Below, in pieces: positions 24,520 through 46,569 of a stretch of 64,000 bases of DNA. The stretch's first letter is position 1. Each line of letters begins with the position of its first letter. Source of the stretch: Watersipora subatra (Eukaryota > Bryozoa > Gymnolaemata > Cheilostomatida > Watersiporidae). The position numbers were made by a program, and so were the translations under genes. The notes beneath the pieces were generated by a model. That model was not told the origin of the DNA and made no database searches. It saw only the letters and a list, made by a program, of their open reading frames with translations. The stretch covers positions 74,843,019-74,907,018 of the forward strand of contig NC_088710.1 in the NCBI RefSeq assembly GCF_963576615.1, given 5' to 3'.

Positions 24520-24588
24520 TCAGATGTTTATAACACGGCTCAGCTTCTGTACACGATTAAGGAGTAAATCGCCTTGCTTAATAACGTC
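24520..24588 (-). CDS. PSMD6: PSMD6 last exon
   Basis: Acceptor CATTGCAG. Encodes [20 protein letters not shown] then NI and stop TGA (24522-24520). The human end is RVINM. Confidence 0.95.
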   Translation of the reverse strand, partial: DVIKQGDLLLNRVQKLSRVINI

Positions 24589-27500
24589 CTGCAATGAAAG
24601 GTACACATGGCATCAGTGAACTGCGCTAGAAAAGAAATGGTATGAAAAGAAAAGAGAGAAACCCACTAGATATAAAAAGGTTAAGAAATTTACCTGGTAC
24701 TGATAATTTTTAGAATCGGGACGATTGGTCTCCACGATGCCCCCAACTTTATCTATCTTCGCATGTAGCCTACCGGCAGCTATTAACCTGGAGAGCTCTC
24801 TGCAATAAGACACGTTAAATTTGAGGATTAGACATTAAAAATTTTCTTTTAAAATATTAGTCCTTGTGACAATATATTTTGTTGTATTTTACTTAGCGGT
24901 AGTTAAAATGCTACAGTCAAACCAGCCAACTTCTTATCAACAAAAAGCTGAAAGACAAAACAAACGAAGAATGAATCAATAGGAGCAAAGCATTAATTCA
25001 ACTAATACAAATGGTAGAGTTAACCAACTCCATCTCGACTGATACCCACATTCGTTCTATAGCACAATATGAAGTTTCCCCAAATATTGTTGTAAAATTG
25101 ATCTACTTGAAGGGTGTTAAAAATGTGATGAAATATACAATATTTAGCAAAGAATTGATTACAAGAAATTTAATATTAATAAATATATACTAGAAATATG
25201 CGAGAACCAATTAATCTTATATGGAGAAGTTCCTCTGTTTGTGCTGTATGAATTATACAGTTAGATGGTACACTTGATATGACCATATAACAGACCAAAA
25301 TGACTATGGCTGAAGTATACCTTAAACCATAGTCACAGCAATATTGTTAATGGTAGACTTGCAACAAAATTAACATTACAATTATTTGGTATTAAAATAT
25401 TCACCATGTCTTACGCTGCTGTGTTGTAGGTGCCAAATATGTGGGAATGTGATTACAAGCTCTTAAAAGCTCAAAAACAAACAGTTAATCGCAGCCATCA
25501 CGAAAACGCCTGTAGGTTGGAATCCCTATCAAAAACGGCTCAAATGGGATGTAGCTGAACACGATGTGCCTCTGTTACACTTTCATGCAACCTCATTCGT
25601 CAAAATATTTTCACAAATATACTTCACACATTCAATAAAACCATGTTTATTGTCCTTACGCGTCTATTTCATCATCATTGTAATGCTGTCACTTTGAGCA
25701 CTGATATCTCAAAACCTAGCCTAAAAATTAGTTTAATTTTTTAACCTTAGCTTGAAGGAGTGCATATCATCTTCTGATAAACACGAGGAGCGTGTTAGTC
25801 ACCTGTGATAGTGGAAAAATGCTGCAGAAATTGTTCACGCTGTTTGGCAGGAAGTATGGGTCACATGATCAGATTACGACTAGATGATTAGACCAAACTG
25901 AAACGAAACTGTAAAGTAGTGAGCATCTATATTAGATATGGGCTTTCCGGTAGAACCCGAAGTGTTTGTCATAAACTAGTGCTATGAGACGTTTTATATT
26001 GAGCCTTTTATTGGCCTTTCAATTCACGTGATAACATCACGTGACAAAACAATAACCACGTCGAATTGAGTACATCATCGAAATAAAGGGATTTCAACCT
26101 ACGGCATTTTCGTGATGGCTGCGATTAACTGTTTGTTTTCGAGCTTTTAAAAGCTTGTAATCACATTTCTACATATTTTGCACCTACAACACAGCAGAGT
26201 AAGACACGGTGAAGCCTTTGATACCAAATAACTATAATGTGAATTTTGTTGCAAATCTACCTTTAAATTTATAACAATTTCTAAATAGAGATGCTAATGG
26301 TACTCTCTAGGTGATATGTGTAGTATATTGCGTGCCCAAACTTAGCCTTACAATCCCAACATCCCGTCGCAGTTGATTGCATGGCAACACAAATACTAGT
26401 AAGTATGAACTATACTTCCTGCCGGTGCTCATACTAGTCAATAAGAAGGCTAGATAGGGGGGGGGGGGGCACCAGGGAAACACCCATATACATGTGTAGG
26501 GCAGTATATCAATCAGACAACACCCTTTATGAACCTTTTACTGTTAGCTCCTTTAGTTCTGGATAACTAATTGGTTGCTAACCCATTGTACCGATGACAC
26601 TTTTACAAAATATTCATACTTTCTGTTTTCTAAAGCATCCTACTCCGAGGCAGATCAACTATTATTCACATATCTGCTGTTGCAGTGCAGCTGCAGATCT
26701 CTTTTATATGAACCAATCAATTACATTTAACAACACATTTTAGGATACTGACAGTATCAGACACCTAACCTCATGAAACAATGTCTTGGAATCAAATATA
26801 AAATAATTGACTGAAGAGTTATTCAAGATTCCTCCTTACGAATACATGATCAAAGCTTAATAAAATTTTCCGTGTCAAACTTTTGACTAAATGTTAAAAC
26901 CTCTACTCTCTATAGAGTTACCTCTCCTAGAAATACACTCGAATCATGGTTTTAAAAAGAAAAACATTGAGCAACCTAATAAAAAGAAATTTAATGAACA
27001 GACCATTATTTCCGCAGGGTTATGGAAAAATCTTGGCATATACACATTTACTATATAGGTACATTTAGGAAGTCAAACAACAGCATAGTCATGAGCCACA
27101 GGACGTAAAGTTTTAGTAGAGAATTGAGAGCTGTAAGTGAAGTGATGATAACGAATGACTTACTGGTCTATGAAAGCGATTGTAACCCCAAAGGCTTTGG
27201 CCATGTACTCGAGTGTAAGACTATGATAGGACTGGAGGAGCTGGTTGTAAGCTAGAACCCTCATCTCCCTCACATAGTATCTGTAGTGCTTGTGCAGGTA
27301 TCTATCGTACCTTAGTTTCTGTTCTATGCTGGCTACAATTAAAAACAAAATCATCAGTTAACAGTACGTCCTTATGGACCACATGGTATGAAGACCAGTG
27401 TGCAAGTCTAACAAGAGAAGTGGCGAACAAAGTTGCTTAAGGTTAACTGACAGCACAAACTTTGATTACATTAACAGCAGCAGCTAACATTATAGGTTGA

Positions 27501-30500
27501 GGTTTTAATAACATTTTTGAGCAATTCCAACCAAATACCAGGTTGAATCAACATCTTTAAGTTGTGCAAATGGACAGAAAGATTCGTGATTTTTGCAAAA
27601 TATCGAATGGAAACAGCTTTGATAACATATAAATATACTAAAATCACTAATTATTTGAATCAGATTACCTACAAATTGCTGTTCAAAATCCTTATTAATG
27701 AAAGTAGAATCTGCATTGATAAACTTTAAACGATGATTTCCGAGAGTAGCTAATTTTTAGTGATTTTTTAAATTTTGTATTTGTGTGAACGAGGAATTTC
27801 TTGATAATTTCTTGCCACCGGTGTACCCACAAGCTGATCGGTGCAATTCTATAAGCAGTGCTCAAAAGTTAATGCGGGATGTATAAATACGGCGAAGACA
27901 TTTCCGGCATTTGTGTAAAGTGCTTTGACCTTGCATCACAATTGTCTGTCATATCAGGTAACCATAACAATGTAGCATGGTGACTACATGGGGGATTTTT
28001 AATGGCGGCCAACACAAGTACACTATTTTTGGGTTCACATGTTGGCTAATCATCAGCGGGGACATCATAATTCATAAGTCTATGTTTTGCTATATGTCAA
28101 GCTTGGTGATTGCATCGCGAGTCTTTTTGTTTTTAAAGTGCTTGTTCCTTCTACCAATGATATACAGCCCCCAAGGATAGCCGACGGCTCTCATATGGGC
28201 GGGGGGTTCAATGATGGAGCTCTGATGGGATGAACCCGAACACGGCACCCGAACAAACAAATATGCTGAATAAAGCCCCTTGTAAATTTACAGATATTAT
28301 GAACTATAGTGGTTATTTTACTTATTTGGTGAATTCACTTTGTTGTCAAATAAATATAGTATCCCAATATTGTCACCATTATGACCAGCCAGTTGCCATT
28401 CGCAAGCATTCGTGATATTAATAGTCACAATCGTAAAATAGCTCAAATTCGGTTTTGTATTTAGATTTTGAGTATGAAAACTACACTGCACAGCTTTGCC
28501 TGCTGTCCCATCTTATTGGTCAGGTAAAACAATGTGAAAACGATGAAAGACTTTGTCATTTTATATTAGGGGTGGCAAAATATTAATCACAAAATAGGAA
28601 AAAAGCCGTTGTTCGGGTAAATTATATTCAACTTTAAGCATATACTACAACCTTTACAAATTTTAAAATTACTAAAAGTAGGTAATTTGAAATGTCTTAT
28701 TTTGTATGGATGCATTATTTTGGTTAGGTATCACCCCTACATTGTAGAAATTCAAGGTTTGCTATTGTGAACCGCGGGTCTACTGACTGAATGAGCTAAT
28801 GAAACGATAACAGCTAGTCGTGTTTTTCAAAACCTAGCAAGGCAATGCGATCGCCCCGCGAGAGTTGTGTTAGCTCCGAAACCCAGGCTAGCATAATCCT
28901 AACAGAGCTCCATCATTAAACCCCGCCCATATGACAGCCATCGGCTATTCTTGGGGGGAGGGGGGGGCTGTATATCATTGCTTCTACCATCAAAACCATT
29001 GCTAAAAACGAAATATTATGATTATATCGGTATAACTACATGTAATTTTAAAATGCTCTCAATTAACCTTCAAACCTAATTGTGAAGACTTAGCTACACA
29101 CAGGGATGCCTTATAGCTCATCGATGCATAGCTCGTCGATGCATAGCTCGTCGATGCATAGCTAGTCGATGCATAGCTCGTAGCTACAAATATGGCTGAG
29201 AAGAGCATTGTATCATCAAACTATTTAGAGAAACTAACACAAAAGCTGCAATGAGAGTTATCAGAGAGTTATACTATACGTAGTTAAAGAGATAAATCAG
29301 GAGTTATCATAGTAATGAAGATGAATCCGGGAGTAAATTAAGTATAATTTTAGAAATGACTCGGTGATCTATTAGAATCTTGTTCTTCGACTGAAGATGG
29401 ATAAAGAGCTAGGTTGATGGATAGATAGCAGTAACGACGTCGCAGGAAAAACAACGATTAATTTATGTAATATTTGGTCTCTCACAAGCTATGACACCTA
29501 CACCGTCAACCATCGGTTGTGTTTTGATTAGCAGTTGTGTATGGCAATTTGTACATGAATATCTTGAGATACGATGGATACAGAATGTACACATATTTTA
29601 GTACAAAATGACATAAATTTAAATGCTTATTTCCAAAGGTGAAAGTGATAATTTGATAGCAACAAACTAATTATACATATATTTGAGCATGTCAAGACAA
29701 CGTCTGTATTTTTAGGTAGCATGGTTTGCTTAGACGATATCTAGGCCAATCTAGGTAAGAATAACTAATTGATGACATTATGGTCTAATCTGAACCAATG
29801 CCTGAACACAAATATCCCAAACAACAAAATTTAATGCCAGCACTACCCAGCAAATAAATATTAGATGCTACAGAGAAAGATAGCACATACCAAGACGTTT
29901 AAAAAACTCTGCGTATCTGCAGTTATACAAAGACATGAGGTATTCCTTCAAGTCAGGCTTTGAGTGTAAGACCTCAAGAATCTCTGCTCCTTGCACCACC
30001 TTGAAAATAAAACATGCAATTACCACTTTGGATTAATCCTCTGTTTAGTCCTATGATAGTTAATAATGATGGTCAACCAATCTTTCTGTCGAGGCAATTA
30101 CCGTAAAACCTCTAATTGAATGCCATGATGCTCTATTTTTCAACCCTTCCTATATATTAGCGGGCAATTGGAGGTAGCGGTCAATTGGAGATAGCGGTCA
30201 ATTAGAGGTAGCGGTCAATTGGAGGTAGCAGTCAATTGGAGGTGGCGGTAAAGTAGAGTCCTGCGTTGTATTTTTCAAATGACTTGTCAGAATTTTGAAA
30301 AAATAAATTTAGCCCTTTACGGGCGAAGTGAATTTCGTCTGTTTTGCCATGATTTATAATTATCTGATTTCTTTTTAAAAAAAGTTATAAGTGCGTTGTT
30401 ATATAACTATTATAATTTGTTGTAGTCATGAAAACTTTTGTTGTGGGAAACTTTATTGTGAGGGAGTTGGCGGACTCCTCGTTTGAGACTATATCAATAC

Positions 30501-33500
30501 CTGTTCTGACGTGGAGCGAGGCGTTACAATATATAACATCAGATTGGAAGGTTTCACGGTTCTATTATCTATGTTTATGTAGGGCCTGCAAAGTTTAGTA
30601 GGATTAATTATTCGGGTAGTTTAAAACAATGTAGGTTATATAGACCCAATAATGGTATTTTGGATGAGATAAATGACCCTTATAGGATACGGATGTTCAG
30701 AAATGACAATGAACGGGATACTAAGACGATTAGAGGGATGGCTGTGGTCGAGAACAGACTCATTGATTTCAATCTGGCTAGAAACATGGCAACCCCTTAT
30801 ATGCATAGGAGAATTTTCACTAAAAGGAACCACACATATAGATTCAGACCACAACTGTTGAGGGATGGTGTTCACCCAACGAGAGATATAACGAGAGATT
30901 GGGCCAGAGAAATAAGGAAAGTGAACGTAATTAATATGGAAAGATTAAGGAGGAGGTTCATCTAAATAGACGTGTACATATATGTATATAAAAAAATAAT
31001 ATAAAAAAAACAAAGTTACTGCTGGTTGTTTGTATTTATGTTGTAGAGAGGGTGTAAGGGCACCCCAGAAGGAGGCTTAAAGGGGAGGTGCAGGATATAG
31101 TAAGAACGGCATTGACCCTAACGGAAGGTACTGGTGAAGCTAGATGATAACTGACGGAGATATCGGAAAGGCCTTCTTGTCTAGGACGGTGAGCTTGCTG
31201 GACATGCTTTGGAAACTTATACAATACTTCTACCATTTAAGGTATAGCTTAATGTTAAGCATATACTACACTTTCCGGTGGAGCGATATTAGATTTTTTG
31301 GATACAATAAATCTGCTAACTTACCTCCAAATTGTCAAAGATCTCTTAATAAATATGTATTGAGAAACAGAGAAATATCTCTCTCTACCAGTTGATATCT
31401 ATTGCTTGCAATTAACCTGGTATGATATTATAGCCTGTGTCCTTCTTTGCAATTTGTTGGTGCTTTCAATTTTTATTTCAATCTAAACTTGAAGAAATAT
31501 TTATATTTTAGATCTATATTTACCAATGTTGCATAAAAGCTCATTGCACTCATTGATAGGTTTGCTAGTTTGCAGCGAGAACTGGCTTTTTATGTGCAAT
31601 AGAAAAATGTTACGAACGTCGATCCAATGTAAGTCACGTTAAGATAACCACTATCAAATAATATGCAATTTTATAAGTTATATACAGTGCACCCTCAGGA
31701 TACAATTTTAGTCCGTTCCGGGTTTGCATCGTATGGTGAAAAAATCACCCAGAGGGGTATAGAAACCATAGTAATTACATACTGCAAACATCCCCTGGTG
31801 AAAAACATCAAAATTTTATACAAGTACTGTACATATTAAAAATTAGTAACAAAATAGTATGTTAACCTTAGTAACTATAGCTGCCTACAGTAACTTGAAT
31901 ATATTAGTGTATTTATTGGTTATGATCTGCATTAATAGGTAACGTTGCAATGTGCTATGTGCATTACATACCGCTGAGAGTTCTTATCTTCAAGACAGAC
32001 GTACATATACCCTAGGACACTTTTATTTCGCTAGAATTTAGTTTCGTGAGTAGTACACAGAGTAAAATTTAGCTGCAACTTAATTTCGCGGCTCTGATGG
32101 GTGCGAAAATATAGTGATGTGAAAATAAATGCAGTGGAACAAACAGATTAGATTCCTCAGGTCTAGTTCGCTAGTAAAAAAAAATTTTCAATTTGGGACT
32201 AGTTTGTATTTGTAAACCGCAGGTAGAAATGTGTGGGTGAGATCGATAATTCAATTTGATCGCTTGCTGCCAATTGTTTCTTGGACTATCAATGAAGTCT
32301 ATGTCACTCCCGCCGTGACTTTCACACTCAAGTCCCAAGAAGAAGAAAATAGATAACAACCAACTTTACAACCAGAACTGTATAACATGGTTGGACCTGG
32401 TGAGGGTTGTTATTGTTTTTGGTTGGTAATAAAATTCATCACTATAATAATTATTACACAATTTTATGACTTTCCCTACCAGACTTTCATCCTCATCAAT
32501 TACAAATTCGGTGACTAAACTGATATCATCATCTTCTTCATTTGTCTGTTCCAAAAAAACTTGTTATCTTAATTTGCTTTGCCATGCTGCTCAGTCGGTG
32601 TGTTAGTTATAACGAGTTTATCAGAAATTTCCCAATGAGCCCAGCCACACACAAAAATTACCTGCATTTCTAATATGACGATTTTATTGTGGACATCAAT
32701 GTACAAAGCTATTTAATTTCGCATTTCCGCTCATTCGTTATGATAGTTTAGTTTCGCTCATGAAATTTTCGCGAGAGGATGACTCCGCGAAAATGCGAAA
32801 GTTAGATGACGCAAATACATTAGTGTCCTAGGGTAACATAAGCTTTGAAATTGACTTTAAAAAAGTTAGCTTACTAAACACACACACTTAAGGCTATGGT
32901 TTAGTACGGTATGTATTATCAACTATTTTACTGAATTCCAACTTTTTATCACTAAAATAATATCACCTATTAGTTTCGGGCTTCGATTTCAACATAATTT
33001 TAGCCGAAATCAGTAAAACCTTTTTAACCTAACTTAGCAAGAAATATAAAAGCTTGACCGATGCTGTTGTCGTAATGAAGTGGATTTTTGTTAGCAGGTT
33101 AAGAGAAGTTGTCTGACCATCGACTTTCTGTTTGATGAGATTGCAAAATCTAACAACTATAAATTGAGTGGGACTAGCCTTCGATTGAAATATCAACCAG
33201 TAATCAACATTTTCATCTTCATCGGTTTCAAAACAAAAATATTTCAATCTATAGAATGATCAATCTATAGAATGATCATTGTCAAACAATGAAGCAAAAC
33301 TTAATCTTGTAAGCTGTTTAACCTCTTCAAACGCAATAGTGATGACAATTTAATCTCTTAAAAGTATTACAACAGCTTTCAGTTTAAAATATTATTAACA
33401 TTAGGAGAGGTTTAAGAGAGTTTACACCCTTGAACACTAGGCATCGCTAGTCTTGGTAAGTTTCAAGGGCCTCTATCAGACAAAAATACAACAGTTGGCG

Positions 33501-36500
33501 AGCCAGAAGAGACAAGCCTACCTTTTCTCTGAGGACTGGTCGGGTAAGAGCCTCCATACCCAGTATAATAGTATAGACAATGAACTCTGAGTAGTCCATC
33601 AGCTCATATGAAGTGAATGTAGCGACAGCATCTAGACAGTACTCTGTAGCCTCCTACAACAGAAAGACAGCATCGAGACAGTACTCTGTGGCCTCCTACA
33701 ACAGTAAGACAGCATCTAGACAGTACTCTGTAGCCTCCTACAACAGAAAGACAGCATCTAGACAGTACTCTGTAGCCTCGAACAACAGAAAGACAGCATC
33801 TAGACAGTACTCTGTGGCCTCCTACAACAGAAAGACAGCATCGAGACAGTACTCTGTAGCCTCCTACAACAGAAAGACAGCATCTAGACAGTACTCTGTA
33901 GCCTCCTACAACAGAAAGACAGCATCGAGACAGTACTCTGTAGCCTCATACAACAGAGAGACAGCATCGAGACAATACTCTCTAGACATTGAGTCATAGA
34001 GGGTCAATGATGTCAACGACAGTGTTGATATATAATCACCCCATTTAGGGCTGTTTAGTCAATTGCATAATACAGGAGTTACGGGATCACAAAGATTATT
34101 TGATATAGTCGGTACCCAAGACCTAACATCACAAATGGTGTTAAAAAGGTGTTTTACTGGTATTAGTTGAACATTTGATGTAAGGAGAATAAATCACCAC
34201 ACCTTGAACTGTCGATTAGCCATACAATTTACAGCCTTGTAGACTTTGAGTCGGTTTCTTCTGTCCCAATCTCCACCCTCATCTATCAGCCTATTATCAG
34301 AACAGGTATAAACTGCATGGTAGTCTCAGATGCAGCTATATTAAGTTAAGCTTAACATACTTGAACAAATCAAGGTAACTTGAGACGGAACACTGGAATA
34401 TCATACGTTTGAGCTCGATCAATGTTCCTAGAAGTAAGATCGTGGTCAAAGTAGAAAAGACCGAGACGAATGAGATGAAACACTGTATCAAGCTTGCAGC
34501 CGATTGTGTGAATCTTTTCCTCTGCTTTACGAAATGCTTCCAAGCAAGCCTCCTGCAAACCACAACAAGGCTTGATCTAGAGATATTGTCAAAAGGTGCA
34601 TTACCAACGGAAATGGAAAAATCATGATTTTTTCCGATTTTCACAATATGATTTTTTCGCTCATTTTTGCACATGCAAACGATCTGTGAATTACATTATA
34701 CATTGAAACGCTGGTGAAGCCACTTGTCAGTATTAGTGACTTACATTTTTTAGTTTGAAAACTTCTTATATTTCTTGCATTCAAAAGCCATATGTGAATG
34801 CTTGCACTTAAGCTGATTGCAGTAAAGAGTTTGATGTCGCAATGTCATTTATTAAACAAAGCAATGAGGGAAAACTGTACTAGTTACGGTTACCACCTCA
34901 CAATTAATCCTGCTTTGAGGATTGCTAAATAAACTCCTAACTTCAAAGGTCTTTCTGTAGCATTATAATAGACATGCAGTCAATTATCTCCATCACACTT
35001 GCTAATTCATGACAGTGATTGTTTACAGAATTGTTACACACACATCAACACAAGATTGTTTGCCAAGAAACACCAATTTTAAAAATTATTAAAAAGAAAG
35101 CAAAAAATAATTTAAAAAAAAAAAATCATGATTTATGTGACGATTTAAATTAAATTTGAGTTTTTGATCCAACCCTGATTACTACCAACATAAATAAATT
35201 TAGGTTCAATTGCAATAATACCTTGTCACCTATTCTTGAAAAATGTTCAGCTTTTTTTATCAACAAATCTCGAACTTCCGTTTCGCCTAAACTCTCCTCT
35301 GCATCCTTGATTGATTCTTCTATAGATGCTAGCGCAGTTGCATTTTGTTGTTTCATGCCCTCTAGCATTTTGGTATCTGCTGTCCAATCAAGGTCTGCAC
35401 AAAGCTCCTCATAAAAAGGTGCCATGTCTACAAGACAACAGTAAGTGTGGCATGCAGGACTAAATTACTTACCGAGCAACTAAAAAATTTCTAGAAAACT
35501 TAACAGACAAAAATGTTTCCTTAAGACGAAGCTTCAAATGTATAGTCAAGCATATAGGCTACAAAATGGCACAATGTTGTACTAGCCTTTACAGGGATTT
35601 TAGACAAGTTCATGATTGATAATACGGATACAGACATGATATTTTCATGAATGACTGTTAGTGTGGGTGGAGTGATTGCAGCAAATGGTTAGTGGTAAAT
35701 AAACAATTGTTTTCTGGTTCGAAACATGTTCACATTCATAAGAAGCTACCAGTATTTCTTTTAATCTTGAGAGTTTTAACGAACTATTTCTGTGACCTAT
35801 TTCTGTTTCAAAATTACAAAGATCCATAAATTAATTGATGACTCATTAGTATACAATATCATTGCTCCACTAGTCTATGAGTGAATTCACCAGGTACTCT
35901 TACTCTTGTAAGTACAAGATAGCAAACAAGCATTTTATAGGTTCATTGGATTCAGTTAGCTATAAATTTGCAAAACATCTTGCTCCCGTTTTCCTTTGGT
36001 TACAAAACAAAATGGTGATGCACACTGCTCAAATACTTTAACACAGTTTATGTTTATTTAAGTTATAGATCTGTGAATTCAATATAGCAATCAATGACAT
36101 GGTCATTTGCTCCCTTTAAACTATTCATCGTCACACCTACATCCAACTACAGAGATATCATATTGGAAACACAATTGCCATTATCATCTCCCAACTCTTC
36201 TTCTATCAATTAGCATCTCTATTCAACTACTTATTTTGATAATTTTTAGTAGCCAAAAATGTTATGTTTCAATTGTTTTTTAACGATGGTAAATAGCTAT
36301 TTCTGATTCCCAGTCCAACTGCTGCCTTCCATTCCTACTGTCTTCTCTTGACATGTTTACAGCATTCAATACATATTTCATATAGTTTGTAAGCAACATA
36401 TTCCAGTGTTCTGTCTGTTCCTACGCTAATTACAATTATGAATATGTTTTGTTTTGGTTACTAAACGTATTAAGCTGCCTATGTATACATCCTTAGTCAT

Positions 36501-39500
36501 AGTAAGAAATTCCTAAACTTTTCTTAAAGAATGCTAAATGCGTATTCTCATGACATGTTATAATAAAACAGGTTCTGCGCTTGATTTCCTATTTGTGGCC
36601 ATACTGATTCGCATTAATCTTCGCTATTTTTCTCCTCAACTACTCAATTACATTGCCGAACAATTTTGCATTAGGGTATATTAAATAATTGCAGAAACAA
36701 TTTTATTTGAGCAACATATTATCAGAACATACAAATTTAAAATATATTGGAAAATATGGCACTTATGTAATCTAAGCCATTGACTAAATCAAGTTAACTA
36801 AACAAGTTTAGGTAGATAGGTTAGGGTTTAGGTCTGTTTTTTAACTGGGAGTTATCCCATCTTTGAATCCCGGGGTCATGGAGATGAAAACTTTAAATGA
36901 GTGTGCTGTTGCAAGTTGGAGAGCACTAGTTCCAAATCCTGCTATGCTACAGTGTATGTGGATATGACCGGAGGGACAAAACTGTCCAGCAGGTGCACTA
37001 TAAAAGATTACCAATCATCTTAAGATTGTTTCCAAGTTAGAAAGCTTCAAGCTTTCAATCTGGTATTACGCACATAAATGAATAGTTACTACATCTACTT
37101 GTATGCACAGTGGAAGAGGTCGAGAATGTAAAAACTAGATGTATTTGCTAAATAAAATGCATAGCCCTGCCCAAGCAAAATACAGTCTATATTGTAATAA
37201 GCAGATAAAAACCTTTTTCAACATACAGTATCACAATTATTATACATTGTGATACTTGAGAGTTACCTTTATCTTTCATCTCCCCAAACTTCTACAAACT
37301 TACTTCTCACAGTGAAGCTAATTAAACACTAACATGAATATTCAGACGACAGTCAAGAATAAGTGCACTCCCAGATTTAAAACACTAACACTGAATTTGA
37401 AAAATAAATGGAAAGTCGATGTACAAAACTTCAATTCATCTACTAACTTATAAAACTCACATGATATGAACAAAACAATGTATGAAAGCAGAGCGCACAG
37501 TCTATTCATATGAAAGCCCTGTAAGAAAAAGTTGGTTGATGTCAGCAATACAACCAGAATCTCTTCCAACAATAGCTCGAAAAAAATTTTCAACTATAGA
37601 ATGGAATCTGACCATCCTCATTCGTCTACAGAGACTTATCAATAAGTGCTTTCCGTCATTTTGCTATCCTGACACTAACTGATTCAAGAATATTTTGCGA
37701 TGCCTTTACCTATTTGATTCTAGACCAATCATGCTTCACTGTTCAATTCTTGTTAATCTCTTACAGATTTCAGTATCGTATACAACATATTATGCAAGTA
37801 CAAGGAATGTCGTATGTACGTAGAGACATGTATATAATTTACATGTATAACAATTATGAAAGTTTAGATGTTCCTAAGTATTAAAATCATGGCTCAGACT
37901 TGAATAAGCTATTCTTTTCAGAACACTTTCTGGTTTAAATATTTTTGTTTATTCTGTGATGTTCTAGAAATTCTGCTTTTTTCAATATCTGACACTTACA
38001 TCGCGCCTTTCTTATGATTTATAAATATTGTTGGAGTTACATATTGTGGATATTGCCACAATCCATGTGCTCTCTAAACCAGTGGTTCTTAACCAGGGAG
38101 AAATTTTGGGATTTTAGGGGGAATTTGGCAGTTTGCCAAAGGGGATTTCCGTGGCACCAATTTTTCTTATATAAAGGGCAGCTAGGAGTGAATGAATTTC
38201 AGTAGTTTTAACAAAGCCAAGATCTAAAACTGTGGAAAAGGTAAGGATTGCTACACTACGTGCATATACATACCTGCAATATTAATTGTTCAGCTACCGA
38301 TTTGGTTTGCATAAACGTATAACATTTTGACAATTTGCTCTGTAGCCTAACATATGTATGATGTTTTGCTCATGTAGATATTGAACGTATTCAAATATTT
38401 CGATTGCATATCCCATATTGTAGGTGTTAGAAATGTCAAAGACAAAAGGACGAACATATGATGATTCTTACCTTAACTATAGATTCACTTGTATGATTAA
38501 AAGCGGCATCGAAGTACCACAATGTGTTTTGTGCATGAAAGTGCTCGCTAACGACTCTATGAAACCACATCAACTTAAGCAACACTTAAGAAATAAACAT
38601 GCAAAACACATGGATAAATCAAAGCCGTTCTTTGAAGCTAAAGAGAGAGGACTCAAGCGGGCAAAACTGGATTCCACTGGCAGCTTTCATATCCAGGCAC
38701 AGGCCATTACCGAGGCATCCTATGCTCTGTCTTACCGTATCGCCAGAGACAAGAAGCCACACACCATTGGTGAAACATTAGTTAAACCTTGTCTGCTGGA
38801 GTGTACTAAGATTATTCTCGGAGACACAGCCGCTCAAAAGATAGCTGATTTATCCCTCTCAGACAGCACAGTGAAATCGAGGATCGATGATATGTTTGCG
38901 GACATAAAGAGGCAAGTAATTGAAAAGATCAAATCATCTCCCATATTCGCCATTCAACTTGATGAGTCCACTGATGTTGCTAGCATTTCACAGCTGATGG
39001 TGTTTGCACGCTATGTACACAGAGACAATTGAGGAAGAATTTCTGTTCTGCAGTCCTCTAACAGAGATCACCACAGCTGCTGATGTTATGAACCTGGTTT
39101 CCGACTTCTTCAGCAAAGAACATCTGGCCTGGGGCAAACTAATTGGAGTTTGCACTGATGGTGCTCCAGCTATGCTTTGCTGTCATGCTGGATTTGCACA
39201 GTTGGTAAAAGAAAAGAATCCTTTAGTGGTGAGTACCCATTGCTTCATTCACAGGCAAGCGCTAGCAGCAAAAACTCTTCCCAAAAGATTGCAGGAACAC
39301 CTTTCTTCAGTGATTAAAGTAGTAAACTTTATCAAAGGCTCTGCCTTGCAAACACGTCTCTTCCACAAGTTATGCCATGATATGGATGCTGTGCACTCAT
39401 CACTATTGTTCCACACCGAAGTTTGATGGTTATCAAAGGGTAACATGCTTTGCGTTTCTTCAATCTACGAGCAGAGGTCAATGAGTTCTTGAAAACTCAT

Positions 39501-42500
39501 AACAAACCCAAACTACTGGCTTCAATGCAGGTAGAAGGCTTCCATCAGTGTCTTGCTTACCTGGTTGACATATTTGGTTCAATCAATGAAGAGAACACGA
39601 AGATGCAAGGTAGAGACAGAAATGTATTAAATGTAACTGATAGTATCAATGCATTCAAGGACAAGCTCAAACTCTGGGTGGAAAGACTGGCTACTGGGAA
39701 TGTAAGAGTTTCATTTCCAGTTCTGCCTTCATTAGTTGACAAGAAAGCTCCTTCCGCTTCTTTGCTAACCGACAAAGCATCACTTGAACAGCTTGATAGC
39801 AGAGTTTGAGAGATATTTTCCAAAGTTAGATCCTAGGACAGAGCAATTGATGAGCCTGACCCAAGACCCTTTCAGGCGCAATATCCACGAGATTCCAGAA
39901 CAGCTTCAGGAGTTTTTATAGCTGACAAACAACTCTGCATTAAAAGATGATTTCAAGGAGCTATCAATAGAGCACTTTTGGGTTCAGGCCCAAAGATTAT
40001 GTCCCAACATAAGCCTGGCCGCTTTCAAGATGCTCATACCATTTGCTTCCACATATCTTTGCGAGTCAGAATTTCCAGCAATGCTAACCATAAAGAGCAA
40101 ATCTAGAAACCGTCTGGAAGTAGAAGCTGACCTACGGTGTGCCCTATCTACAACTCCTAGCATCAAAATTCTGGTCAGCTCCAAACAAACACAGAAATTG
40201 CACTAGTCTGCTGACTGTCTTACAATGATAGATATATTGAGTTTCAATTTACATTTATTTTTAATATTCCATGTAAATATGACTGTAACAAATGCATATA
40301 TACATGTCTATATATGTATATAAGTTATATATGTAAATAAAGTTCACTATCTAGTTGCAGTGCATTATTTGAAGGAGTTGGGAGGGGGAATTTCTGTCTT
40401 TAGGTTTGGAAAAGGGGAAATGGGACAAAAAAGGTTAAGAACCACTGCTCTAAACCAAACAAGCCTTTGGCTACCTAGTGCATTTGAGTTCTGAGCTAAT
40501 TTCGCCTTCGTGATTTGATATTGCAGAATATTGAACATCTCAACAACCAGTAAAACCTATAACTAATCAGTTGGTTATTATTTTAATAAAATTAATTGGG
40601 ATATATCATACATTACAAGAAAGTTCAACGCCTCCAATTTTGGTTAAACCAAAAACTATTCTTTTGTTATGTGGGCACAACAACGGCACCACTTTACAAT
40701 TACACACGGTAAAACGTTGGTCAAGGCTAGTCTTAATAGGTAAATGCACTAGGACCTACTATTAAGAAGTCAAGACCTTCATTGTTTCTTAATAAGATAT
40801 AACCTCGTCGCAGTTATCTTCGCACTAGACCACTTAATGTGGAAGTGGTGTGCCTCATATGATTTAATTTATTTCATCAGTGGTCTTCAATGTTCGAGTA
40901 ATTGAGTTGAATTAGTCAGTAAGGCAAACTTAACTTGCTATATAAGTTTATAGTGCTTTTGCTGAGTGGTTATTTGTAGGATTTTTAATGTCTCTTATGG
41001 TTCTAAGTAAAAAGCTGTTAAATTACTTTTAGTGGCATGCACGGATGATGGTAATCCTTTACTGTTTGCTCGAGTTTGGTGTGAAGCTCGGATTGGTTAA
41101 TCTAATCTAAAATTTTCCCACTACACCCTTCTAGAAAGAAGGAAAGGGGTGGGAACTCTTTTATTACAAAAGTTCTTTACTAAAAACCTCTCAGGTCTCG
41201 AGTTGTTCTTGGCCAAAAAGAATTAAAAAACGCATTTGTCCGGATTGTTGGCACAAACAGACCTGCTTTCTGTCGAGTGTTGTGGTGCTTGATAGTATTT
41301 TTAAAATCAGGGACCGTAAAGTTCCTTTCCACTGCTTTTAAATCAAATGTACACCTAATATCTTTTCGCCGTTTAGCTAAACTCTCGATCCCTGTATTTG
41401 CTCTTATTTCTGTAAAACTGACTTGCCCCTTTAGTTTAAAAATGAACCTTAAAGCGGTGTTCTGTATTTTCTCAAATCGTTTGATATCTTTTTCATAAAC
41501 GGGTCCCATACCGTGCAACCGTACTCTAAAAGTGGCCTCACCAAAGAAAAATAAGCAATCTGCCGAGTTTTTGTGTCAGCATGCTTTAAAACTCTCCTTA
41601 GCATATGTAATGTTCTATTAGCTTTGCTTATTATTTTTACATAGTGAATTTCCCATTTCAGGTTATTTTGCAACTCAATGCCAAGATATGGATGTGAATC
41701 AACATTGTCTAAACGTTGGTCACATAAAAAATAACTTGCTTTTGAATTCGACTCTCCAACTGAAACAGCACATTTAGAAACATTAAAAGTCAATTGCCAC
41801 TCATTAGAATAGTTTTGGAGTACCCTAAGGTCTTGTTGCAATACCGCTTTGTTGACGCGGAAATTAAATAAAAGAGTATCGTCAGCAAACAGTCGGCATT
41901 CTGACACCATAAGGTCTGGCAAGTCATTAACGTACAATAAAAAAAGAAGGGGTCCCATAACTGACCCTTGGGGCACTCCTGAGTTAATTGGACAAAATGG
42001 AGAGTTGGCATCTTCCACGGAAACAAATTGCCTTCGGTTCGATAAAAAATCCTCTATCCAAAAAATAAGATTTTCATTTATACCGTAATAGTTGAGTTTG
42101 AGTAAAAGTTTACGATGATTCACAGTATTAAATGCCTTAGAAAAATCTAATATGATTACATCTGTAATAATTCTATTATCCAGATTAGAAGCAAGATCGT
42201 TAATTGTATAAACAAGCTGGGAATCGCAAGATCTTCCATTTCTAAATCCATGCTGACTATCGTGCAAAATGTTATATGTGTTTAGATGATCATGAATTTT
42301 AGAAGATACAATATGTTCGAGAAGTTTACAAGTAATGCAAGTCAAAGACACTGGTCTGTAGTTAGTGGGTAATTCTTTACTTCCTTTTTTTATAAATAGG
42401 TATGACCCTAGCAACTTTCCAGATTGATGGTATTGTGTAACTGTCTAACGAGTATTGAAAAATCTCCGTAAGACATGGAGCTATAATGCGAGAAAACAGT

Positions 42501-45192
42501 TTTAAGACTTTACTAGACAAATAATCAGGTCCCCTAGTTTTACTTTCCTCTAGATTTCGCAACAGGTCAAATACTCCTTCTCTAGAAATTATCAAGTCAG
42601 TTTTATCTTTAGGTATATCCACTAATTTCATTTCAGGTGATTGGCCATCATCTTTGACAAAGACAGACTCAAAAAAGGAACCCAGAAACATAGCTTTCTC
42701 AGCTGGTGTTTGAGCCAAATTATCATCATATTTAAGATCTGGAATGATGTTGCTTGCATTGATTCTACTCTCTTTTAGGTAGTTGAAAAAAGGTTTACTA
42801 TTGCCAGTGAGTAGTGGTTTGTATAGTCGTGTATGTAAATATGATCTCTTAGCTTGTTGCACTAACTTTTTATTGGATTTTTTCATACCTTTGTATTTTT
42901 TTATAGCATAGTATGTATTTTTACGTTTAATTTTTCTGTGAAGCATTTTTTGCTTATTCATATTTTTTTTATATTTGCAGTCATCCATTTTGGATCATTT
43001 TGCTGTGTTTTCAATTTTTTGGTAGGTATACATTTGTTTCTCAGCTCGTTGATACCGTTAATAAACAGGTCGTAGATATTACTTATGCTCTGTTTGTTTT
43101 TTATCATAGAAGAAAATTGTTCTTGATACTTGGGAAAAATTGATTCTACTTCTTCCATATTTGTTTTTAAATACAACCAAATAATATCTGTTTCTGATTT
43201 ATAAATATCTGGAGTAAAATCAAGTTCCATAGAGATAATACTATGGTCACTATACAGTGGATCTGATACCTCAACCCTAAATACAAAAAGTGTTTGTAAG
43301 GACTAAATCTAAAATGTTTCCTTTAATGTGGGTAGACTGGTGACCATGTTGTTGCAAATTTAACTCTGTTAATTTATATAAGAATGGGTTACAGAGTGAG
43401 AAATTGCTATTACTCTTGTAATGATCCCAATCAATTTGGGGAAGGTTAAAGTCTCCGCAAATACAAAGTGGATCTTTCTTGCTACTCATTGCTTTCCCTA
43501 TTTCTTCGAGTAAGCTTGGAATAAGCAATAAATCTTTATTATTAGGTGGTCTATAGACAACTGAAAAATAAAAAACCAATTTTGCCACCTTGCATTTCAA
43601 CAAAAGAACCTCTGAAAGAGATTCCAAAGGAATAACCTCTACACGCACATCTGATCTTACATAAATAGCTACTCCTCCCCCTCTAACATCTCTATCTTTT
43701 CGAAACAAATTGAAACCATTAATTCTGACTTCTCCTGAGTTTATTTCAGATCCCAAAAAAGTTTCTGTAACACCAAAAACCAAAACGTTACAATGTTGTC
43801 CAATCTCCCATTCAATATATGGTACCTTGTTCCTAAGTGAATGTATATTGGTATATAGTATCATAGACCTACCATCTTGCTCATTTAGAAATTGTGGCTG
43901 ATTAGCCCCATTTGCACACTTGTTTAGTTCCTATTTTTTCCTAATGACCACAGCCCCCTTCTTAATAATAACATCTTCCCCAAGTTGCTTTCTTGCTCTT
44001 AACTCTTTCCTAAGTTTGTACTGGTGATCCCTTTCTTGTTTAGTGAGGTCTGGGTTCACATAAATTCCTTTAAACCCCTCATCGGACATACATATGCCTC
44101 TTGCCTTAGCCACTAAATGCTATTTATCACTTGTCGATTCGAAAGTAGCAATGTAAATTTTATTCTCTGGCTTGCCAACTTTCACAACTTTTGAGGGTTG
44201 CTCAATACCAGCTTTGTCTACTATGATTTTTATTTGTGCCTCCGACACGTCTCCTGTGAAAACAGCACTAGCAGCCCTTTTCTCTCTCTCCCTTAACTCA
44301 TTAGTCACAGTTAATAAGTTAGGTTAATAAGTTAATAGGTTAATAAGTTGTCGTATGAACTGTTCAGTGCTGAATGCTTATCCTTTTCACTAAGTATCCT
44401 CATTAAAAGTGTAGTCTGATGTCACGACGTCTCTTTTGTAGTAGCTAAAAACCAAACTTTTCTTTCGCTTCACTACTACTTTCTCGTCCTTTATGGTGGC
44501 TCATAAAACGTACAGCTTGATTTTGAATAGTTTCTATATCTGCTGTGTTTTTTTTAAATGGATCCCATATTGATGCAGCATATTCAAAATGTGGGCGACA
44601 AAGTGACTTGTATGCCAGCAACCGAGCAGATTGTGGAGCCCAGTATAAGGCTATTTTTAAAATGCCTAGTTGTCGCTTTGTAACTACTGTTTTTTTTAGA
44701 AATACGCTTGTCAAATCTTAAGTTAGATTGTAACTGGACACCAAGATAACGCGTATCTTCCACATGGTCTAGAACTTGATCACCAAGAGCGTATTTTGGT
44801 ATTCATCTACTGCTGTTAAAGCCGATGACGTGACACTTAATTGCATTGAAGTTCATTTTCCATTTATCTGTCCATTGTTTTATTTGGTAATTTTATTTGG
44901 TACAGTACTGATAAATGTCAGCAGCTACAAGTGGAGCCATGTTATGCGCATTAATCCTGTCAATCAGGCCAAAAAGATTTTATATTGTGATATGGGAATA
45001 TAAGAAATTCAACGACAAACCGTAGCTAGACGTGTATTTGTACTTACTGTCTGCTGTTATCGATGCCATAATCTGGCTCTTTATTTCTTTATCGTTCTTG
45101 TACTTTTTCGTGGTAAGCATAAACTTCCATTGTGCAAGTTGCAAATTGGGATTTTTCTCAAGACCTTCTTCTGCCATATTCTCTATAGGCAT
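24520..45192 (-). CDS. PSMD6: 26S proteasome regulatory subunit Rpn7/PSMD6, complete (9 exons)
   Basis: Non-ATPase subunit of the 19S lid, a helical-repeat plus PCI-domain scaffold protein. Coding join on the - strand, 5' to 3': 45192-45048, 35427-35222, 34552-34407, 34290-34203, 33653-33522, 29999-29891, 27332-27164, 24799-24694, 24588-24520. The sum is 1170 nt, i.e. 389 aa plus stop, the same length as human PSMD6, and every junction keeps phase. Seen in order: start [97 protein letters not shown], then the PCI-domain end [31 protein letters not shown] and [15 protein letters not shown]. It is head-to-head with MORN3. Intron 1 is about 9.6 kb and carries a hAT element and LINE debris. Confidence 0.97.
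24694..24799 (-). CDS. PSMD6: PSMD6 exon 8
   Basis: Acceptor TATTGCAG, donor GTAAAT. Encodes [20 protein letters not shown] and [15 protein letters not shown] (PCI winged-helix part). Confidence 0.96.
25351..26262. mobile_element. TTAA-flanked inverted-repeat element, copy 2 (PSMD6 intron 8)
   Basis: A 912-bp relative of the element at 2143-3004, again with TTAA at both ends (25347-25350 and 26263-26266) and ends TGGTAGACTTGCAAC / GTTGCAAATCTACCT. Most of the interior aligns by eye with copy 1. No transposase. Confidence 0.7.
26267..27163. other. PSMD6 intron 8 remainder
   Basis: No exon or element ends recognised. A run of G (26457-26469) is the only low-complexity feature. Confidence 0.4.
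27164..27332 (-). CDS. PSMD6: PSMD6 exon 7
   Basis: Acceptor TAATTGTAG, donor GTAAGT. Encodes [20 protein letters not shown] then [20 protein letters not shown], ending GVTIAFID in the PCI domain. Confidence 0.96.
28155..28980. mobile_element. Inverted-repeat element in PSMD6 intron 6
   Basis: An 826-bp element with ends CAATGATATACAGCCCCC / GGGGGCTGTATATCATTG. The inverted similarity continues through GATGGAGCTCTG. CTTCTAC lies directly outside both ends (28148-28154 and 28981-28987), a 7-8 bp target duplication compatible with a hAT-type element. No coding capacity. Confidence 0.7.
29112..29190. repeat. 15-bp tandem repeat
   Basis: About five copies of GATGCATAGCTCGTC in PSMD6 intron 6. 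Confidence 0.85.
29891..29999 (-). CDS. PSMD6: PSMD6 exon 6
   Basis: Acceptor TTTTCAAG, donor GTATGT. Encodes [20 protein letters not shown] and ends RYAEFFKRL. Confidence 0.94.
30101..31684. mobile_element. Interspersed element A with SGNH-like coding remnant (PSMD6 intron 5)
   Basis: Left end after TA: CCGTAAAACCTCTAATTG, then a 17-bp tandem repeat (GAGGTAGCGGTCAATTG, 30170-30250). The parts at 30300-30335 and 31268-31660 match 53386-53800, so both are copies of one family. The roughly 0.9 kb in between is absent from the other copy and carries a decayed ORF. The right end is cut off by the next element at 31685. Confidence 0.5.
30428..30965 (+). pseudogene. Decayed element-borne ORF, possibly SGNH-hydrolase-like
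   Basis: From ATG at 30428 the frame reads [13 protein letters not shown] then [13 protein letters not shown] single frameshift near 30555-30570 leads into [15 protein letters not shown], and the second frame stays open through [20 protein letters not shown] to [20 protein letters not shown] and a stop at 30963. The pattern VVG..IVREL, a hydrophobic strand ending in G, and a final DGVHPT block recall SGNH/GDSL-type hydrolases. The canonical GDS serine is not evident. I do not recognise the exact family. It lies antisense within a PSMD6 intron. Confidence 0.35.
31685..33200. mobile_element. TA-flanked element family, copy A, interrupted by a nested MITE
   Basis: Starts CAGTGCACCCTCAGGATACA after TA. 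The body aligns with 55243-56122 and 59923-60572 (TATGGTGAAAAAATC, GGGTATAGAAACCATAGTAA, GAGAAGTTGTCTGACCA). The body is split by an 824-bp insertion at 32010-32833. The right end is not resolved. Confidence 0.6.
32010..32833. mobile_element. Nested TA-flanked MITE
   Basis: Ends CCCTAGGACACTTTTATTTC / AGTGTCCTAGGG with TA on both sides (32008-32009, 32834-32835). It interrupts the copy A element; the related copy at 55.2 kb continues uninterrupted over the insertion point. No coding capacity. Confidence 0.75.
33522..33653 (-). CDS. PSMD6: PSMD6 exon 5, whose 5' end is tandemly copied
   Basis: Acceptor CTGTTGTAG, donor GTAGGC. Encodes [20 protein letters not shown] through VLREK. The acceptor plus the first ten codons recur upstream as a 42-bp array (33624-33990). 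Only the copy nearest the exon body gives an open frame. Confidence 0.95.
33624..33990. repeat. 42-bp tandem array made from the PSMD6 exon 5 splice acceptor
   Basis: Eight full units and a partial ninth. On the - strand each reads GAGGCTACAGAGTACTGTCT then AGATGCTGTC, followed by TTTCTGTTGTAG. That is the acceptor plus the first ten exon codons, then a linker with an in-frame TAG. The unit nearest 33653 is the functional junction. In the fourth unit the acceptor AG is changed (CTCGAACAAC on +). Confidence 0.93.
34203..34290 (-). CDS. PSMD6: PSMD6 exon 4
   Basis: Acceptor GATAATAG, donor GTGTGG. Encodes [20 protein letters not shown] and ends NRQFK. Confidence 0.95.
34407..34552 (-). CDS. 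PSMD6: PSMD6 exon 3
   Basis: Acceptor GGTTTGCAG, donor GTATGA. Encodes [13 protein letters not shown] through [14 protein letters not shown]; the split ACG codon continues into exon 4. Confidence 0.95.
35222..35427 (-). CDS. PSMD6: PSMD6 exon 2
   Basis: Acceptor TCTTGTAG, donor GTATTA. The split AAC codon precedes [14 protein letters not shown]; the exon ends [10 protein letters not shown]. Confidence 0.95.
35428..37440. other. PSMD6 intron 1, left part, nothing recognised
   Basis: AT-rich intron sequence with no coding similarity, arrays or element ends that I could support. Confidence 0.45.
37450..37920. repeat. Interspersed repeat shared with CDC27 intron
   Basis: The stretch CACAGTCTATTCATATGAAA through CAACTATAGAATGGAATCTG and on to about 37920 aligns by eye with 51960-52390 in the CDC27 intron. 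No ends or ORF recognised. Confidence 0.6.
38080..40447 (+). mobile_element. hAT transposon with perfect target duplication (PSMD6 intron 1)
   Basis: A 2368-bp element with ends CAGTGGTTCTTAACC / GGTTAAGAACCACTG. It is flanked by the identical 8-bp CTCTAAAC at 38072-38079 and 40448-40455. It carries a broken transposase gene (38433-40206). Transcription of the element opposes PSMD6. Confidence 0.93.
38433..40206 (+). pseudogene. Broken hAT transposase (BED zinc finger, ZBED/SCAND3-like)
   Basis: Starts [18 protein letters not shown] and has a BED-type zinc finger (CVLC ... HLRNKH). It then has the hAT core: [65 protein letters not shown], and a C-terminal dimerisation region with [12 protein letters not shown]. 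The gene is broken by frame changes near 39010-39030, 39426-39450 and 39809 and by an in-frame TAG near 39918, so it is not functional. Most of the family length is present. Confidence 0.88.
41180..43864 (-). pseudogene. LINE ORF2 remnant: endonuclease plus reverse transcriptase
   Basis: The endonuclease part shows [40 protein letters not shown] and NILDLVLTN. The reverse transcriptase part shows [76 protein letters not shown] and [11 protein letters not shown]. The reading frame is broken in at least four places (around 43250, 42970, 42400 and 41480). The catalytic FADD is preserved, but the gene cannot be translated as one protein. Confidence 0.85.
43931..44308 (-). pseudogene. LINE ORF1-like fragments
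   Basis: Two short open stretches, [20 protein letters not shown] and [20 protein letters not shown] with a lysine-rich end [10 protein letters not shown], lie just upstream of the endonuclease. They resemble the C-terminal part of ORF1 of CR1-like LINEs. Function not assigned. Confidence 0.5.
44430..44920 (-). pseudogene. Second, separate LINE reverse-transcriptase fragment
   Basis: C-terminal RT/thumb pieces: [56 protein letters not shown] and [14 protein letters not shown]. They repeat motifs already present in the LINE at 41180-43864, so this is a different truncated copy. It lies about 130 bp from PSMD6 exon 1. Confidence 0.8.
45048..45192 (-). CDS. PSMD6: PSMD6 exon 1 (start codon)
   Basis: ATG at 45192-45190. 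Encodes [20 protein letters not shown] through [10 protein letters not shown], donor GTAAGT. The human protein starts MPLENLEEEGLPKNPDL, so this start is well supported. Confidence 0.96.
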
Positions 45193-45647
45193 TTTGGAAT
45201 TCTTAACGTTATAAAAGCATGAGAAAAGATTTTCAACGGTCTCTCATTAACGACCCCGCAACAATTTCTTCTAAACTGCCCAATCTTGCCGATTCATCGT
45301 CATTCAGATGAGAAAAACTAGCATTTTGATTTTGTTTAATTATCAATAATTTTAAACAAACTTAAAAAAAATTAAAATTTTGTGTTTTTTACTTTTTATA
45401 AAACGTTTTTGGTGTGTCATCTGTATCACCGGAAGCATTATTTTCCATAGATACCGAAATAAACCATTTGAGTAATTTTCATAGTCACGCAAAGCAGATT
45501 AAGCATTAGCTAGTTCGTCGAACACGTCGTACAAAAAGTAAGCTAGATATTTTTATTCAAAGTTTATACATTTAGTGAATCAAACAAAATTCGTTGTTTC
45601 GAATCTAAACACGGTTGTATTATAGCTTTTACAACTATAAGGTAACG
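45193..45647. promoter_or_regulatory. Head-to-head promoter region of PSMD6 and MORN3
   Basis: Only 455 bp separate the two start codons. It contains an ETS/GABP-type core (CACCGGAAGC, 45427-45436) of the kind common in bidirectional housekeeping promoters. No TATA box at a convincing place. Confidence 0.6.
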
Positions 45648-46065
45648 ATGTCATATGAAAAACCGATACAGCCGCAGTGGGTGAAAAAACCACGTGAGAA
45701 GCAACCACTGTGGAAAGAATGGGATTACAATGCAAACAAACGAGGAGTCAGACACACTGTGTATTCAGTAAATGGTGATGAGTACACTGGAGAATGGCTA
45801 GACAACCTCAAGCATGGAAAAGGAACATATACTTGGAAAGCAAATAAAGCCATGTATGATGGTGATTGGGCCAAAGGGAAAAGAAATGGATTTGGAACAT
45901 ACAGCTTGCCTAAAGGAACTAGTTATCGGAAAGTGTATGCAGGTGGATGGAAAAATGACAAGCGGCATGGGTATGGCACAAACTTTTACACAGATGAGGA
46001 GTACTATGAGGGTGAATGGTATGCTGGTAATCGAAGTGGTTGGGGTCGGATGTATTACGAAGACG
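45648..46065 (+). CDS. MORN3: MORN3 exon 1
   Basis: From ATG to the split codon after RSGWGRMYYED. Contains four MORN repeats. Confidence 0.94.
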
Positions 46066-46569
46066 GTAAGCATACCACAGCTACAATAGTTGATAATTAT
46101 CAAAATTTCTGAGTTTTTACGCTATGATAATTAAATGATAGTGTAAATTAGAAATTATTCATTGTTCAAAGATCTTGTCACATGGCTCATTGTACTGAAT
46201 GATAGTTATGAATGAGATGGTGAATAAATGTCTTTTTGTGTACTTTATGCAGGTACAATATATGAAGGAGAATGGTATGATGACAACCGTAGTGGACAAG
46301 GAATGCTACGTTTGCCTAATGAAAACAGGTATGAAGGATCCTTTAAAAATGACAAGAAAAATGGAGCAGGAAAGTTCTTCTATCTTGATAAGGGTCAGCT
46401 ATACGAAGGGGTGTGGGTAGATGATATTGCCAAATGCGGTGAAATGAGAGATTTTGGTCGGGATACTGCCTCCGCCCCAACTCAATTTGAAATACCTCAA
46501 GTAGAACTTTATAACTCTAAGGCCGTTTTGGAAGAAGCTGAAAATACATTCTTACCTGAACAAGACTGA
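45648..46569 (+). CDS. MORN3: MORN repeat-containing protein 3, complete (2 exons)
   Basis: Coding join 45648-46065 and 46253-46569 gives 244 aa (human 240). Donor GTAAGC, acceptor TTTATGCAG, split GGT codon. The product starts MSYEKPIQPQWVKKPREKQP and LWKEWDYNANKRGVRHTVYS, matching the family's LWKGWD.KAQRNGLR..VY. Seven MORN repeats follow (YTGEWLDNLKHGKG, YDGDWAKGKRNGFG, YAGGWKNDKRHGYG, YEGEWYAGNRSGWG, YEGEWYDDNRSGQG, YEGSFKNDKKNGAG, YEGVWVDDIAKCG), then DFGRD.A..PTQF.IP and a short acidic tail. MORN3 is associated with sperm and ciliary function in vertebrates. An in-frame TTG lies upstream at 45615, but the ATG at 45648 fits the family start. Confidence 0.95.
46253..46569 (+). CDS. MORN3: MORN3 exon 2
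   Basis: Begins TIYEGEWYDDNRSGQG and ends NTFLPEQD, stop TGA. Contains three MORN repeats and the conserved DFGRD tail. Confidence 0.94.

Follow-up and report, generated by a model that had tools for sequence, protein, structure and literature searches.

In lancelets, tandem duplications of a minisatellite-like kind that span an intron/exon boundary have been described and are known as mirages (PMC3087553, PMC3902484). They were found in the genes Adh3, TnC and PGBD5 and in the globin genes BflGb6 and BflGb9, and in the BflGb6 mirage an intron's 3' end is repeated together with the 5' part of an exon. As characterized in these reports, mirages occur at both 5' and 3' boundaries, the splice signal is kept in many copies, not in all, and the copies of a cluster evolve in concert, the interior units being homogenised and the cluster edges excluded (PMC3087553, PMC3902484). 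Length instability between alleles is a further trait of the class. Regular splicing is reportedly left undisturbed (PMC3087553, PMC3902484), and the Adh and TnC mirages are said to generate no aberrant mRNAs (PMC3902484). In intron 7 of human factor VII 37-bp repeats are present, and according to the description of that gene splicing normally uses just the 5' splice site lying furthest upstream (PMC6627357). Furthermore, the model of Rogers, as cited in PMC3087553, explains intron gain by tandem duplication.

The window analyzed here is a stretch of 64,000 nucleotides of Watersipora subatra, which carries a tandem array at the 3' splice site of exon 5 of PSMD6. The array has three structural features of a mirage. 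It is a minisatellite-like tandem array (42 bp x 8.6, 94% match), its unit spans the intron/exon boundary with the authentic boundary being one of the copies, and the acceptor AG is kept before six of eight copies and lost before two. The unit of 42 bp compares with sizes of 150-160 for BflGb6, 157 for BflGb9 and 10-72 for Adh3 as given in the lancelet reports. The factor VII repeats, as described, copy a 5' splice site downstream of the exon, whereas the PSMD6 unit copies a 3' splice site upstream of it plus the exon start; a closer counterpart in our region is a 65-bp donor array of the Calx-beta gene treated below. With the model of Rogers, as outlined in the source cited above, the array shares a tandem duplication that involves an exon boundary. 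It is unlike that model in that no new intron between the copies is indicated and an intact frame requires the exon-adjacent copy.

The structure of PSMD6 (window positions) is as follows:

24520..45192, - strand: coding region, nine exons (tblastn, splice sites, joined translation, Pfam RPN7 on exons 2-5)
45192-45048, - strand: exon 1
35427-35222, - strand: exon 2
34552-34407, - strand: exon 3
34290-34203, - strand: exon 4
33654..34202, - strand: intron 4, 549 nt, of which the array takes up about 332 nt (exon ends and TRF)
33653-33522, - strand: exon 5, 132 nt, acceptor TTGTAG/GAGGCT, donor GAAAAG/GTAGGC
29999-29891, - strand: exon 6
27332-27164, - strand: exon 7
24799-24694, - strand: exon 8
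24588-24520, - strand: exon 9

The exons were located by tblastn with a human PSMD6 query. When the nine of them are joined at the exon-adjacent copy, the frame is open from the ATG to the stop codon and encodes 389 residues, and each of the eight introns begins with GT and ends with AG. Exon 4 ends with QFK and joins exon 5 in phase 0. Four exon ORFs, that of exon 5 included, matched Pfam RPN7. The protein encoded by exons 2-6 matched solved structures of human PSMD6 (residues 1-226 of 227, E about 4e-85). A 24-residue stretch at the start of exon 5 aligned to human PSMD6 without gaps, its first ten residues standing opposite human QAAELFLDTV. When exons 2-6 were scored singly against the 784-Mb assembly, the five matches among the best candidates all fell on this locus and none elsewhere. 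Since the nine-exon frame is open and no other locus was matched in this search, PSMD6 is presumably functional here, and in a working gene the copy at 33653 must be used.

The following features were found within and around the array:

33624..33985, - strand: 42-bp array, 8.6 copies (TRF)
33947, 33905, 33863, 33821, 33779, 33737, 33695 and 33653, - strand: first bases of the eight intact exon-start copies (unit listing)
33960..33989, - strand: leftmost, degenerate exon-start copy, the ninth (unit listing)
33948..33959, - strand: AG-less linker ending TAT (unit listing)
33906..33917, - strand: decoy acceptor linker TTTCTGTTGTAG before copy 33905, score 10.0, equal to the real acceptor
33864..33875, - strand: decoy acceptor linker before copy 33863, score 10.0
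33822..33833, - strand: decoy acceptor linker before copy 33821, score 10.0
33780..33791, - strand: AG-less linker ending TTC (unit listing)
33738..33749, - strand: decoy acceptor linker before copy 33737, score 10.0
33696..33707, - strand: weaker decoy acceptor linker TTACTGTTGTAG before copy 33695, score 5.5

Read on the - strand, the unit consists of a 12-nt acceptor linker, most commonly TTTCTGTTGTAG, followed by 30 nt of the exon 5 start, GAGGCTACAGAGTACTGTCTAGATGCTGTC. With a TRF score of 633 we judge that the array is not a chance pattern. An earlier note on this DNA, made from the letters alone, had described about eight tandem copies of the acceptor and the first ten codons of exon 5 in units of 42 bp, and this description was confirmed: eight intact exon-start copies including the real one, each encoding ten residues, are accompanied by the degenerate ninth. 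The extent given there, 33522 to 33990, likewise fits the exon and the leftmost copy. The real exon start is 33653, with the acceptor between 33654 and 33653.

Three of the eight compared units, the second, the sixth and the eighth, are identical over 42 bp. The eighth contains the real exon start, and thus the unit at the exon-side edge is the same as two interior units, while the far edge is degenerate. Several units carry private variants. Within the copied exon starts two sites are variable, both of them synonymous (chance about 0.054, ~5%), which is at most a weak hint that translation of the copies took place in the past or takes place at times. A search of the assembly revealed no second copy of the array locus. 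The only other genomic match to the array stretch, on contig C9 with 69% identity, was considered as a second gene copy and rejected, because its sequence is that of a minisatellite whose unit, 39 bp long, is a different one; no gene was recognised there by eye. Opposite the array an ORF of 134 codons is present on the + strand (33595-33999), as expected when a stop-free unit is repeated.

The linker ends with TAG before six of the eight copies (33905, 33863, 33821, 33737, 33695 and 33653); TAT is found at 33947 and TTC at 33779. Two units instead of one have therefore lost their AG, and the number of possible 3' splice sites, put at up to eight before, is reduced to six, the real acceptor and five decoys. 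Acceptors were scored with a simple weight matrix trained on 16 PSMD6 and CDC27 acceptors, which did not include that of PSMD6 exon 5 and of which one (68174) is one base off. The real acceptor reached 10.0 and took the joint first rank among 42 scored AGs, tied by four decoys, and the fifth decoy reached 5.5.

Translation from each of the five decoys ran into an in-frame stop. The earlier note expected the same 17 residues plus stop from any upstream copy; the stop held for all five decoys, the exact peptide for three of them (33905, 33863 and 33695). From 33737 an LLL-stop variant of the insert is obtained, and from 33821 the frame continues across the TTC copy to a stop one unit further on. 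Together with the open frame of the joined gene this bears out the statement that only the exon-adjacent copy is productive. Such a stop arises automatically when the intron is in phase 0, the acceptor reads TAG and the unit length is divisible by three.

To place the array in its surroundings, a block of 294 kb (C3:74708019-75002018, 36% GC) was read. The window ends ~1.0 Mb before the end of the 75.9-Mb contig. At a TRF score of at least 100 and a period of at least 7 the block contains 136 arrays with a median period of 31 bp, which cover 32.4% of it and range in density from 6% to 60% per 21-kb stretch. Besides PSMD6 the block holds CDC27, CPSF4 and a large Calx-beta-repeat gene. The latter has a sub-threshold EPTP match and resembles ADGRV1. 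Two of its large exons reached 77.2 and 36.1 bits against a Pfam cut-off of 27; its segments came from a home-made profile grown on that same gene.

For each exon segment, the same strand was scanned up to 3 kb away for near-copies of the coding sequence. An exon edge copied into an adjoining array was found for 5 of 80 segments, a lower bound set by sensitivity and not a genome rate, as copies are detected only where a segment reaches the exon edge. The control with reversed sequences yielded none (0/80). Positive segments were found in PSMD6 (1/9) and the Calx-beta gene (4/55) and not in CDC27 (0/11) or CPSF4 (0/5, one of these segments being weak with E 0.16). A sixth, sub-threshold case was found by eye. 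Apart from PSMD6 the boundary arrays, all in the Calx-beta gene, are:

C3:74775145-74776408: acceptor array, 55 bp x 22.9 (TRF), CTCTTACAG acceptor plus exon start
Acceptor array, 48 bp x 4, exon frame open through all copies, no stop
C3:74815705-74817012: donor array, 65 bp x 20, last codons plus 5' splice site of a Calx-beta exon, GT kept in 19/20
Donor array, 81 bp x 3, candidate flagged by the scan
Donor array, 35 bp x 1.9, sub-threshold, found by eye

Three of the six units (42, 55, 48, 81, 65 and 35 bp) are multiples of three, and three of the five arrays outside PSMD6 are located at donors. The exons of the 48-bp, 65-bp and 35-bp arrays join a neighbour exon in phase, as judged by eye. 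A further 48-bp array is located at C3:74791484-74791976, and its last unit leads into an open frame (LDGTGPLFISYNDDAL...) that may be coding. The exon of the 55-bp array follows a detected exon without a visible join; this array is probably a genuine boundary array. The 81-bp array may be regarded as a candidate. A Pfam Calx-beta search gave no match for the segments at the 55-bp and 48-bp arrays and matches below the curated cut-off for those at the 65-bp, 81-bp and 35-bp arrays (E 0.035, 0.0029 and 0.00038). Since these neighbouring arrays have no stop, have units that are not multiples of three or are located at donors, the built-in stop at PSMD6 is a by-product and no design common to boundary arrays.

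Based on these data we would rather read the PSMD6 array as a tolerated mirage, with a probability of about 0.83. A minisatellite would have formed by chance across the boundary in a minisatellite-dense region, and splicing is predicted to occur at the exon-adjacent copy. A 42-bp stretch with the 3' splice site and the exon start was probably duplicated in tandem, and the identical units and the degenerate far edge suggest that the array then expanded and was partly homogenised by ordinary repeat turnover. Splicing would most likely take place at the copy adjoining the exon body, because only this copy gives the intact, conserved PSMD6 frame. As four decoys tie with the real acceptor, the motif itself cannot explain such a choice, and the selection probably comes from the exon side. 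Exon definition, acting across an exon 5 of normal length, would be the likely reason. Transcripts from upstream copies would be truncated, probably NMD-prone and probably rare. Against a tolerated mirage it counts that a decoy would be selected if the first AG were strictly taken from a branch point that precedes the array; the two synonymous variable sites weigh weakly in the same direction.

The decoys carry full acceptor motifs, and the array might therefore be tolerated and yet leaky. Without any regulation, a small and steady fraction of the transcripts would then be spliced to decoys and destroyed, and PSMD6 output would be slightly lowered according to copy number. This is unlikely in view of the Adh and TnC mirages, for which the lancelet report speaks of no aberrant mRNAs (PMC3902484).

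Still less probable, and unsupported by the data, is the splicing or NMD switch suggested in the earlier note, by which regulated use of decoys would tune the level of a proteasome subunit. Five decoy acceptors, four of them equal in score to the real one, an in-frame stop behind all five and the lack of a second locus with PSMD6 exons 2-6 among the matches would suit such a switch. However, any phase-0 TAG acceptor with a unit divisible by three brings such a stop with it, comparable arrays nearby lack the stop or such a unit or are located at donors, and the units hardly differ from each other, as would be expected of a young array. In addition, 32% of the region is minisatellite, and the arrays of lancelets are reportedly harmless to splicing. 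By the same evidence the alternative offered in that note, that the array is simply tolerated, appears to be the better reading. That the assembly gives a wrong copy number, as the identical units would permit, or an array absent in most individuals is very improbable given the private variants of several units, the intact gene sequence that continues on both sides and the similar arrays throughout the block.

The array at PSMD6 would by itself be a curiosity in a housekeeping gene, and it is of more interest how many such arrays the 294-kb block contains. Taken together, they suggest that in some chromosome regions of animals short tandem expansions often extend across splice sites and are tolerated there. 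Six spanned boundaries were seen against 0.8-1.3 expected when units are placed at random (at least 10 nt on each side, 100-160 boundaries assumed). Without PSMD6 five arrays stand against 0.9-1.1 expected (P about 0.002-0.006). Both expectations assume a uniform density, which is false here (6-60%). Pure chance may thus not be the whole story, and the excess is a lead only, because of this assumption and because five of the arrays belong to one gene in an array-dense part.

Outside the block, four chaperonin (CCT) loci had no boundary array in 23 exon segments. These represent 23 of 72 family matches in the assembly, with searched flanks that end where the stretches end, and for one segment a single match of 18 nt was found at a distance of about 2.5 kb. 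The chaperonin loci are poor in arrays (two in 33.5 kb). So far, boundary arrays track the local array density, and the block is atypical of the whole genome.

It is therefore a tentative proposal, somewhat short of an even chance, that in minisatellite-dense regions boundary arrays occur at several percent of exon ends, at donors and acceptors alike, with 20 or more near-identical sites among which the exon-touching copy is still picked. If this were true, the genome would be a large natural experiment on the choice of splice sites among identical neighbours, and mirages would be common and perhaps not confined to lancelets. Such arrays would bear on exon recognition among competing identical sites and on the lengthening of introns, as well as on automated gene prediction, where the wrong copy could be chosen.

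The introns of CDC27 contain arrays as well. The exon positions were derived from a human sequence. The arrays are:

56396-56722: 33-bp array, fills most of a CDC27 intron
58277-58497: CDC27 array
58783-59260: CDC27 array
68706-68794: CDC27 array in the flank (window numbering continued)
69563-70284: CDC27 array in the flank (window numbering continued)

All five start 8 to 41 nt into the intron from the donor. The unit of the 33-bp array (GTGACAG CTATGG) is partly like the real acceptor TCTGACAG/GTATGG at 56381, which the array may include; the boundary scan did not flag it. Among the 32 examined exon ends of PSMD6 and CDC27, 7, six of them in CDC27, have an array no more than 50 nt into the intron, and these counts are unchanged by one-base donor offsets (PSMD6 exon 5, CDC27 exon 2). 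Random points gave 17.6%, and random points outside arrays 2.2%. A general seeding of minisatellites at splice sites was rejected as unproven, since the outcome hinges on the fair null and six of the seven cases are from CDC27. It is kept as a lead.

Several further elements were present in and around PSMD6. At 38424-40203 (+ strand) adjoining ORFs appear by eye to be a hAT/ZBED-type transposase, the first ORF being without a Pfam match. A run of ORFs in PSMD6 intron 1 (41183-43930, - strand) looks by eye like a non-LTR element, and one ORF of this run (41452-42444) is a reverse transcriptase (Pfam RVT_1). A MORN-repeat gene (45609-46566, + strand) is located head to head with PSMD6 exon 1.
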